NCBI GenBank assembly: GCA_902790635.1
Contig: CADASN010000004.1
Coordinates: forward strand, 62,001-126,000
Direction: 5' to 3'
Length of the DNA: 64,000 nt
Origin: an uncultured Bacteroidia bacterium
GTDB taxonomy: Bacteria > Bacteroidota > Bacteroidia > Bacteroidales > UBA932
Under the pieces are notes generated by a model, which had not been told where the DNA came from, did not search any database, and saw only the letters and a program-made list of their open reading frames with translations. The translations under genes and the position numbers were made by a program. Shown piece by piece: positions 33,761 through 36,663 of this stretch (position 1 is its first letter; each line of letters begins with the position of its first letter).

Positions 33761-35098
33761 ATGGACAGAAGAGAATTTATAAAATCTGCAGGTCTGGGCG
33801 TCGCTGCGCTCGGTGTTGCCGCCTGCGCACCCAAAGCCGCCGAACAGATCGCCGGCTCCACCTTCCAAGGCAACAAGGAACTCAAAGGCGAGATGCTCCG
33901 GAACTACCCGGGCATCGGCACCCTCGGCTACGGCTGCATGCGCTGGCCCATGGTCAAGGGCGAAGACGGCAAGAACCACATCAACCAGGAGGAGGTCAAC
34001 CGCATGGTGGACTTCGCCCTGGCGCATGGGGTCAATTATTTCGACACCTCTCCCGTCTATCTGGGCGGCGACAGCGAGCGTGCCACCGCGGAAGCTCTCA
34101 ACCGCCATCCGCGCGAGAGCTGGAAGATCGCGACCAAGTTGTCCATTTTCAACCCGACTCCGCTGGAGGATTGTATCAAAATGTACAAGCGTTCGTTCGA
34201 AATCTTCAAGACGGACTACATCGACTATTATCTCCTTCACGCCATCAGTTCAGGCGAAGACTTCAAATCCCGCTTCGAGGACTCCGGTGTCGTCGACTAT
34301 CTGGTCAAAGAGCGCGAAGCCGGCCGGATCAAGCATTTCGGTTTCTCCTTCCACGGTCACCAGGAAGGCTTCGACCAGATGATGGCCCTGCACGACAAGT
34401 ACCACTGGGACTTTGTGCAGATCCAGATGAACTACATTGACTGGGAGCACCCCTCCGGACGCAACACCCGCGCCGACTATCTCTACGCCGAGCTGGACAA
34501 GCGGGAGATCCCCATCGTCATCATGGAGCCGCTGCGCGGCGGCGCCCTGGCCAACATCCCGGCCGACCTGGCCGACCGGCTCAAGGCCCGCGAGCCCCAG
34601 CGCTCCATCGCCTCCTGGGCCTTCCGCTACGTGGGCAGTTTCCCGCGCGTGATGTGCGCCCTCAGCGGTATGACCTACATGGAGCACCTGCAGGACAACC
34701 TGGAGAGTTTCCTGGACTTCCAGCCGCTGAACGACGAGGAGAAGCAGCTTCTCTGGGATATCGCCGACCGGATGGAGAACTATCCGCTCGTGCCCTGCAC
34801 GGGCTGCCAGTACTGCATGCCCTGCCCCTACGGTATCAACATCCCGGGCATCTTCAAGTTCTACAACGACAACGTCACCGCCGGCACTTACGTGGAGAGC
34901 AAGGAGCAGGAGGGCTATGCCAAGGCACGCCGCAAGTATCTGCTGGCGTACAACGAAGCCATCCCGACCGTCCGTCAGGCCGACCACTGCATCGCCTGCC
35001 GCAAATGTGAGAAGGATTGTCCGCAGAACATCCGCATCCCCGACCAGTTGCGGCGCATCGACCGCTACATCGAGAGTCTCAAGCAGGAAACGCTCTAG
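33761..35098 (+). CDS. Secreted aldo/keto reductase with C-terminal [4Fe-4S] domain
   Basis: A 445-residue protein. The N-terminus MDRREFIKSAGLGVAALGVAACA is a twin-arginine signal with a lipobox cysteine, so it is probably exported folded and lipid-anchored. The AKR barrel spans about residues 45-320 (YFDTSPVY with the catalytic Tyr region, IKHFGFSFHGH). The C-terminus has two ferredoxin-like motifs, CTGCQYCMPCPYGINIP and CIACRKCEKDCPQNIRIP. This is the Fe-S AKR family (COG1453). It pairs with the upstream polyferredoxin, which probably delivers or accepts its electrons. The substrate is unknown. The stop overlaps the convergent trmB stop in CTAG. Confidence 0.88.
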   Translation: MDRREFIKSAGLGVAALGVAACAPKAAEQIAGSTFQGNKELKGEMLRNYPGIGTLGYGCMRWPMVKGEDGKNHINQEEVNRMVDFALAHGVNYFDTSPVYLGGDSERATAEALNRHPRESWKIATKLSIFNPTPLEDCIKMYKRSFEIFKTDYIDYYLLHAISSGEDFKSRFEDSGVVDYLVKEREAGRIKHFGFSFHGHQEGFDQMMALHDKYHWDFVQIQMNYIDWEHPSGRNTRADYLYAELDKREIPIVIMEPLRGGALANIPADLADRLKAREPQRSIASWAFRYVGSFPRVMCALSGMTYMEHLQDNLESFLDFQPLNDEEKQLLWDIADRMENYPLVPCTGCQYCMPCPYGINIPGIFKFYNDNVTAGTYVESKEQEGYAKARRKYLLAYNEAIPTVRQADHCIACRKCEKDCPQNIRIPDQLRRIDRYIESLKQETL

Positions 35099-35332
35099 TC
35101 GGATTCTGCTCCGGCATGAAGCTTCTGGCGGCGGGTCTCGGCGGAATCGTGGCCGAAGAGCAGCCGCGGGCCCTCGGCGGCCCGCCAGGCCTTGCTGTCA
35201 AAATCCTCCGGATCCCGGGGACTTACGTACGGCCCTTCATGGTCGATCACGAACGACAGGTACGTGATCGGATAGCCCTGCTCCAGGAACAACTGCTCAT
35301 AGAACGTCTGCACCTCCCGTACTTCATTCGGG

Positions 35333-35543
35333 ATGTCCGATTGCGTTGGGCTGGACGACAGCTCGCCCCTGCAAACGTCTCGCTGCGCTCGACCCCACCG
35401 CTGCGCTTGCTGTACCCCACAAATCTGAGATTTGCGGGGGCCCCACACCTCGCTTGCGGTCCCCCCTCTTACTTACGATGCCGAGGGTGGCACGGTTTGC
35501 TGGGGCGACTGCCGCTCCAGCCTTGTCACCGCAATCGGACATG
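35333..35543. repeat. Insert in the trmB C-terminal joint bounded by long inverted repeats
   Basis: ATGTCCGATTGCG (35333-35345) is the exact inverse of CGCAATCGGACAT (35531-35543). The match continues imperfectly through GGCTGGA, TCGCCCC and GCAAAC, giving arms of about 45-49 nt (35333-35377 and 35495-35543) that flank repeat copy 1. The outermost 8 nt of the left arm appear to be original trmB sequence. Confidence 0.7.
35356..35472 (-). repeat. Interspersed repeat, copy 1 (inside trmB)
   Basis: This copy is identical over 100 bp (35373-35472) to copy 2 at a constant offset of 628, with diverged but recognisable matching down to 35356. It contains a 25-bp near-palindrome at 35415-35439 (CCCCACAAATCT / AGATTTGCGGGG) and three GC-rich modules resembling AAGCGCAGCGG, GAGCGCAGCGAG and AAGCGAGGTG on the minus strand. 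Confidence 0.85.
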
Positions 35544-35983
35544 CCATAAAGATCAGATGTACAGGCAAGGATCTGCAAGTTATTGCAGCGGCAGACAGCG
35601 AGGGCGTATTCGTGCAGGAAGCGGGAGTCGGTCTTAAGGTGGACGATGCCGCCTGGCCGCAGGAAGCTGCGGTAGCGCTCCAGGAAAAGCGGCGAGCACA
35701 GGCGGGAATTCTCGCTGCGGTACTGCGGATCCGAGAAAGTCAACCAGACCTCGGACACCTCGCCGGGAGCAAAAAACGCCGTGATGAACTCCACCCGCGT
35801 CCGCAGGAACGCCACGTTCGGCAGGCGGTGCTCCGTCGCATACTTCGCTCCCTTCCACAACCGCGCCCCCTTGATATCCACGCCGATATAATTCTGATCC
35901 GGATTCCGCTCCGCCAGCGCGATCGTGTACTCCCCCTTGCCGCATCCCAACTCCAAGATTAACTTCTTTTCCTGCTTGCAGTT

Positions 35984-36100
35984 CGGCAGCTCCCCCCTGA
36001 AAACGTCTCGCTGCGCTCGACCCCACCGCTGCGCTTGCTGTACCCCACAAATCTGAGATTTGCGGGGGCCCCACACCTCGCTTGCGGTCCCCCCTCTTAC
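35984..36100 (-). repeat. Interspersed repeat, copy 2 (inside trmB)
   Basis: The same element as at 35356-35472, in the same orientation; its palindrome is at 36043-36067. The outer flanks TTCTTTTCC / GGAAAAGAA (minus strand, near 36104-36112 and 35963-35971) are inverse to each other, so this copy also sits at the tip of a stem formed by gene sequence. Confidence 0.85.
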
Positions 36101-36234
36101 GATCGGAAAAGAAATCGTTCCAGCGGCCTTTGACGGCGTGATCGCGGAGGTGAAAATAACCGTCGGCGAGGAGTTCCTGCGCAGAGGGCTGCAGGAGACA
36201 GGAGAACGTCTCGTTCTCCGCGAACTTGCGTAAC

Positions 36235-36663
36235 TTATCGTGTCCCATCCTGTTTCTTATACACTACACCAATCCCCAGGAGATCCTCCCCCACGTCCAC
36301 CGGCCGCACACTCAGCTGCCAGTCCCCGGCTTCCGCAGGCACCATCCCGCTCCGGTAGCGCTCCCGGGTCCCACGGGTATCCACAGAGCGCATATAGACC
36401 GTCTCCGAGAAGCCGTTGCCGGACGGGGCCAGCCACTGCACGTTTAACTGGACGTTGCTGATCGGCGTCTTTCCGACCCGGCTGTAAAACCAGAAATCAT
36501 ACCGCGCCGTCGTATCCGTAAGCGGTAGGGAAAAGACATAGACCCCGTCGCGGGCATCCTTCCGGAAGATAAAGGTCTCCATCCCGTCCGGCTCCGAACA
36601 GGCAGGCAGCAGGCATCCCAGGACGCATGCCACTAGCAAGGCTCCCAGAATCCGGAATTTCAT
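36235..36663 (-). CDS. gldH: GldH-like lipoprotein
   Basis: A 142-residue lipoprotein with signal MKFRILGALLVACVLGCLLPAC, lipobox LPAC. The mature part is a single beta-rich domain (YDFWFYSRVGKTPISNVQLNVQWLAP) typical of GldH. GldH belongs to the gliding/type IX secretion gene set in gliding Bacteroidota but is widely kept in non-gliding Bacteroidales beside ricT and holB, as here; the role in those is unclear. It overlaps the trmB start by 14 nt, and its ATG follows the ricT stop with no spacer. Confidence 0.85.
   Translation of the reverse strand: MKFRILGALLVACVLGCLLPACSEPDGMETFIFRKDARDGVYVFSLPLTDTTARYDFWFYSRVGKTPISNVQLNVQWLAPSGNGFSETVYMRSVDTRGTRERYRSGMVPAEAGDWQLSVRPVDVGEDLLGIGVVYKKQDGTR

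Follow-up and report, generated by a model that had tools for sequence, protein, structure and literature searches.

The trmB gene in the DNA studied here, from an uncultured Bacteroidia bacterium, is interrupted twice by copies of a hairpin element that is about 100–200 nt long and has a pseudoknot core. We conclude that these inserts very likely represent a mobile element, palindromic and probably non-autonomous, which is kept inside genes where it lies in frame and would be translated as an extra loop of the host protein. This reading is carried by the element family, by its fold as seen in covariation, by its in-frame use in relatives, by the lack of decay in the interrupted gene and by the positions of the lesions that break its frame; from these sequence comparisons we infer that the element is mobile, that the loop is translated and what may have caused the lesions.

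Within the window (i.e., the whole stretch of 64,000 nt that was analyzed), trmB lies on the minus strand from 36248 down to 35095, and its start, catalytic domain and C-terminus occupy three different frames separated by two interruptions. The N-terminal coding segment (MGHDKLRKF...KGRWNDFFSD; 36104..36248, 3' limit approximate), the catalytic segment (KKLILELGCGKGEYT...CTSDLYG; 35543..35968) and the C-terminal segment (DIPNEVREVQTFYEQLF...AGAESD; 35095..35344, 5' limit approximate) are all intact on this strand. Insert 1, at trmB site 1 (35974..36103, minus strand, boundaries approximate), is a 3n+1 copy that matches the covariance model of the element weakly (35992-36072; 25.4 bits) and by itself folds no better than shuffles (z = 0.02). 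Insert 2, at site 2 (35345..35546, minus strand, boundaries approximate), is a full element, also 3n+1, with long private outer arms, a strong hairpin fold (z = -6.16) and a clear model match (35364-35510; 61.6 bits, E 2.6e-13); the 5' part of its pseudoknot core, GCCACCCTCGGCATCGTAAG, is at 35472..35491 (minus strand), with a GCC/GGC stem and a CCCTC loop that pairs with GAGGG downstream. The longest block common to the two inserts is exactly 100 nt, is identical between them (36001..36100 in insert 1 and 35373..35472 in insert 2, both minus strand) and extends at 97% identity over 117 nt. The two trmB copies are the only model matches within the window.

Insert-free relatives (L166 and L170) have 165 nt from the start to motif I and 45 nt from DLY to TFYE, compared with 295 and 241 nt in the window, which makes the window gene longer by 130 nt at the first position and by 196 nt at the second; each difference is 1 mod 3. 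An earlier note on this DNA had described three intact TrmB segments, each in its own frame, with a stretch of 1 mod 3 at either joint, and the comparison with insert-free relatives confirms this description. Its length of about 130 nt for the first insert stands; the second, given there as 202 nt, measures 196 nt, since 202 follows from one possible placement of the joint. The shared block and the match of both copies to one element family bear out its view of two insertions of a single repeated element, and the identity of the block suggests copying between the two copies, in line with the gene conversion it had proposed.

The coding parts of trmB were likewise claimed to be free of decay, and we found the same. 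Across three conserved blocks, dN/dS between the window and nine relatives was 0.036-0.088, similar to the 0.050-0.078 obtained for eight pairs among the relatives themselves (a tenth relative, G089, was left out because one block failed to match). At sites that are invariant in the others, the window trmB has 0 residue changes, compared with 0-7 in the relatives. The dN/dS values rule out an old pseudogene, and, together with the absence of private residue changes, they imply that the frame break is either recent or not real.

Each of the two trmB copies is broken by a single lesion, and both lesions lie directly against the 100-nt block, at its 5' edge: the site 1 copy has lost the 5' arm and also the first half of the core, and the site 2 copy carries a 4-nt tandem duplication, the 13-nt sequence of which occurs nowhere else among the loci compared. 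Most probably a single event affected the two copies together. It may have been a conversion that went wrong in the cell or the misassembly of a short repeat, which we weigh about equally; in either case, the event would have hit both copies where the 100-nt block begins. If the break is real, faulty conversion or slippage would have inactivated trmB recently and left a pseudogene too young to show decay, a reading to which we give just under an even chance. The breakpoint common to both lesions agrees with it, and shortened palindromic leftovers at trmB and RNase R sites of relatives suggest that copies do undergo deletions; however, 117 of 118 good-quality genomes of the genus have TrmB, so that loss of this gene is rare, and the window trmB has no private residue changes. 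If the break is instead an assembly artefact, a short-read assembler would have collapsed the shared block and rejoined it wrongly, which we regard as a serious possibility at somewhat less than even weight. Such an error would put both lesions precisely where the identical block starts on its 5' side and leave the coding parts undecayed, as observed, and the window genome is an assembly of 39 contigs with 83% completeness in which, as in the other genomes, no other genic copy that could be placed is out of frame. On the other hand, a 4-nt tandem duplication is an ordinary mutation too, and the flanks of both inserts are trmB on either side, so that a gross misjoin is absent.

The repeat is not peculiar to this gene, and the search for it elsewhere that the earlier note had called for found it spread through the genus and inside many ordinary genes. 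A DNA search of the window genome and 60 relatives recovered the element in 10 genomes of the 61, and these 10 belong to a single genus; a search for a short pattern of the core, allowing <=3 mismatches, matched 21 of the 61 (one of them by a three-mismatch match in another genus), with 0 matches for the reversed control. For wider surveys, a covariance model was built from an alignment (A1) of 23 selected cores, 20 of which came from a set of 30 cores and 3 of which were trimmed by hand, all picked for looking clean. Within the window's genus, this model matched 311 of 400 genomes at E <= 1e-3; wider samples gave matches in 4 of 295 genomes across the order at E <= 1e-4 (window genome included) and 1 of 247 across the phylum, namely the window genome, which has 15 matches. 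As the genus survey scored just the best 10 candidates per genome, in what are largely draft bins, its copy numbers are lower bounds; with 150 candidates scored, one genome (G331, to which locus L188 belongs) yielded 16 matches. The 80 related trmB loci come mostly from ruminant and horse guts, and six are from Candidatus Cryptobacteroides, where 2 of the 6 genomes have a weak match versus the 16 in G331. Elsewhere in the order, three further genera carry element copies, and two of these genera belong to other families (G576 with L089, L093 and L097; G524 with L090 and L094; G606 with L091 and L095), and the L093 copy is in a frame that is open through the element.

Known RNA families and transposases offered no ready identity. 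None of the covariance models of Rfam 15 matched the element in eight loci searched up to E 1, the two matches obtained (E 0.79 and 1) both being outside it. No Y1 transposase was matched in the window genome (83% complete, as noted), and just 1 of 18 Y1 transposase loci in seven other genomes had an element within about 1.5 kb; we thus found no link that would support mobilization of the RAYT or IS200 type. A longer autonomous element was rejected as well, since 120 of 159 cores have a findable 3' arm and in 118 of these it is within 100 nt; L152 and L144 have theirs at 245 and 626 nt, and 39 of the 159 have no 3' arm by the strict test.

Four parts make up the core. One is the outer stem; another is an H-type pseudoknot of the form NGCC-loop-GGCN', in which the CCCUC of the loop pairs with GAGGG; the third, a middle hairpin, is visible in the sequences and was kept outside the pair counts; and the last is a small hairpin closed by a loop of three bases. 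In alignment A1, 85.2% of cells were paired versus 74.9% in shuffles, with none of the 500 shuffles reaching the true value, and 18 pairs showed two-sided changes versus 12.0 in shuffles and 5-12 when partners were slid. All 13 pairs of the outer stem show changes on both sides; a slide by one column still left 12 two-sided pairs, with a covariation score of 0.209 versus 0.280 for the true pairing. The pseudoknot stem is invariant within A1. Across all loci it carries compensatory changes and exists in four compensated versions, found by a pattern that itself demanded pairing: CCCUC/GAGGG (143), CCCGU/ACGGG (10), CCCAU/AUGGG (1) and CCCGC/GCGGG (1). Copies with the CCCGU/ACGGG loop form a subfamily (L002, L005, L082, L102, L104, L129, L169, L172 and L320), with members in open frames inside genes (L005, L104, L169, L172, L320) and others that are intergenic (L002, L102). 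In two copies of another genome (L018 and L024 of G012), the middle hairpin is enlarged and contains extra sequence. Conserved terminal inverted repeats and a target site duplication made by a known transposase would mark a MITE; on this point, the copies show outer arms that are private to each site: among 125 copies, arm complementarity averaged 20.4 within a copy versus 6.9 across different copies, and beyond the inner 24 nt pairing exceeded the 99th percentile of the control in 16 of the 125. A single strand of the element would be predicted to fold into a long outer stem enclosing the H-type pseudoknot, the middle hairpin and the small capped hairpin.

How the element is used within genes was assessed at two sites of trmB and one of RNase R, anchored by protein motifs. 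Relatives' trmB genes with and without inserts, for which the earlier note had proposed to search, were both found, and where inserts are present they occupy the same two sites, in frame. The trmB set consisted of 110 loci that were best matches and hence non-random (10 duplicates removed, 99 distinct apart from the window). At site 1, all 97 distinct relatives that could be measured were in frame and open (4 core-bearing), and so were all 69 at site 2 (16 core-bearing); for 30 further loci, site 2 went unmeasured, in most cases owing to variation in DLY, and 29 of these read in frame to the next motif (4 core-bearing), with one running off its contig. Every core-bearing trmB copy found outside the window thus keeps frame (24 of 24), whereas the two in the window break it. 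Among relatives, the element occurs in either orientation at one and the same trmB site, and both sites are filled in L161 and L164 and, with other repeats, in L162, L169 and L172. At trmB site 1 of L188 (a red deer bin), another palindromic insert was seen, with similar DNA by eye near L028; a pattern search for this insert matched L188 alone and not L028. L247 has at site 2 an in-frame insertion that is apparently nested within an element copy. For RNase R, 36 best-match and thus non-random loci were collected, which came down to 29 distinct loci once 4 duplicates and 3 loci without an anchor were set aside; all 29 were in frame and open, including 10 core-bearing ones, the window genome's among them. 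One regex match (L319) was removed as false because its spacing equals that of an empty site. Altogether, 34 of 34 motif-anchored core-bearing copies outside the window trmB were 3n and open. These tests supersede an early tally of frames open across the element (41 of 76), as spurious long open reading frames abound in this GC-rich DNA.

Many other genes carry the element. The window genome has it in 20 places: 12 in open frames of 11 non-trmB genes (a count that is partly circular because an open frame was itself the genic criterion), 5 that are intergenic (L002, two in L102, L103 and L286), 2 in trmB and 1 fragment (L321). The host genes encode QueH, an FAD-dependent protein (two copies), an HI0933-like protein, RNase R, and proteins with DsbD_TM, helix-hairpin-helix, RibF, TPR/DUF5107 and THUMP-like domains, along with L106 (no Pfam match) and L320 (an open reading frame of 665 codons). 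With the insert left in, RNase R, ATP synthase gamma, TilS, MtaB and the carbamoyl-phosphate synthase small subunit score above the curated NCBIfam cut-off, as do two RibF domains with Pfam; some host names in other genomes (RlmB, RlmI, YfmH) score below it. Genes for tRNA and rRNA modification recur as hosts (TrmB, QueH, MtaB, TilS, RlmB-like, RlmI-like). A separate repeated insert, AIPLEG[VA]QGV, occurs as DNA or peptide in L108, L122, L172 and L321, at least three times inside open frames.

A codon model of moderate reliability (358 of 459 confident test pieces right, 101 wrong) was then applied to 138 copies outside the trmB-fetched loci and called 56 as genic, 66 as uncertain, 11 as between opposite-strand genes and 5 as at a contig or locus edge. 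The genic calls comprised 48 in phase (41 open) and 8 out of phase, and were 24 sense and 32 antisense relative to the gene. On inspection, four of the out-of-phase calls were intergenic (L002, L026, L034, L042) and four lay in reading frames open through the element (L062, L112, L124, L125). Among the 22 in-phase sense copies, open or not, the two stop-free frames were used by 18 and 4, and the frame with a conserved TAA by none. Since frame is almost always kept, the element is probably translated as an extra loop.

Two other explanations of the family fare poorly against these data. A regulatory hairpin, terminator- or REP-like, whose presence in genes is only incidental would account for the intergenic copies listed above, but we consider it very unlikely given that most places in the window genome are within open frames and that identical in-gene sites recur across species. 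Equally improbable in our judgment is that the inserts are intervening sequences excised at the mRNA level or bypassed by the ribosome, so that the window trmB yields normal TrmB, as the earlier note had allowed: the conserved fold with its covarying pseudoknot, the undecayed coding parts and the equal net frame shift that both inserts would need all suit this idea, but length and stops would be irrelevant to an element that is removed, and yet the 24 trmB and 10 RNase R copies are without exception 3n and open, the conserved-TAA frame is avoided, and the occurrence of both orientations leaves no constant sense-strand RNA signal. On the strength of the motif-anchored copies, we reject an intron, bypass or recoding for the family. 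Mobile bypassing elements and the hop in phage T4 gene 60 are hairpin-rich inserts in reading frames that ribosomes skip, whereas the element described here keeps frame and openness.

We therefore return to an element that is retained as coding sequence, which would survive inside genes when in frame and add a loop to the host protein; two loops of TrmB are occupied repeatedly, one ahead of motif I and the other following DLY. An AlphaFold model, from an alignment of 38 TrmB sequences headed by a protein with both sites filled, had a mean pLDDT of 74.7, with a largely confident core (blocks above 90) and values under 50 across most of residues 57-98 and 245-286, which are the inserts. Foldseek against the PDB returned BsTrmB structures as the best matches (top 7nzj). 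The translated element is thus predicted to form an extra loop that is probably disordered.

Several sites hint at how copies come and go. At the RNase R site, one species is filled with perfect 24-bp arms (L302), another has a palindrome that is 99 nt shorter (L305) and two are empty (L301, L303), in species of no close kinship, whose flanks are 83-85% identical. Judged by eye, the 3' arm of the filled site resembles the empty sequence, and its 5' arm is apparently an inverted copy of that host DNA. At trmB site 2 of L171, a 34-nt palindrome without the core was seen by eye in the coding sequence, and is probably a scar. These few cases suggest that host DNA may be copied inverted at insertion and that loss may leave in-frame scars. 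Going further, we tentatively entertain, as a possibility that we do not expect to hold, a new class of mobile hairpin in which the pseudoknot core would act at the RNA or single-strand level, the outer stem would be made anew at each insertion as an inverted copy of flanking host DNA, and the private palindromic loop thereby added to a host protein may later shrink to an in-frame scar.

Comparable repeats are described, in the parts of the cited reports that were available, for other organisms. Rickettsia palindromic elements (RPE), the kind that the present element most resembles, are about 150 bp long, fall into ten families and are often in frame in unrelated genes (PMC10969869, PMC2996958); compared by description only, they resemble the present element as dispersed palindromic repeats with in-frame insertion in unrelated genes, but belong to another phylum, and the element here has a pseudoknot core and private outer arms and uses both orientations and several reading frames. 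Stand-alone in-frame coding palindromes are also reported from housekeeping genes of Wolbachia and Methanocaldococcus jannaschii (PMC2996958), a likeness again of description, in unrelated hosts. GTAG- and CGTC-tagged REPs are small palindromes of 20-40 bp, some of them within ORFs, and the CGTC type also occurs in Bacteroidetes without an associated transposase (PMC3733652); the element here is 100-200 nt long, with a pseudoknot and no RAYT link found. Long inverted repeats inside protein-coding genes of Nematomorpha mitochondria (PMC6649704) are perfect repeats in animal organelles, with no mention of a repeated core in the part that was available. Within the portion of the literature covered by our search, we found no report of such elements in Cryptobacteroides or other Bacteroidales, so that the occurrence in these Bacteroidales, the pseudoknot with compensatory changes and the site-private outer arms, one of them apparently host DNA copied in inverted form, appear to be new as far as this search extends.

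For draft genomes, the window trmB is a caution that frame breaks at such repeats may be assembly errors. More broadly, the coding palindromes known from the sources available to us are those of Rickettsia, Wolbachia and one archaeon, and here an element of comparable habit is present in hundreds of related gut Bacteroidales genomes, in genes for core enzymes. Filled, empty and probably scarred sites coexist among these genomes, which opens the origin of the element, its insertion and the lengthening of proteins to comparative and proteomic tests.
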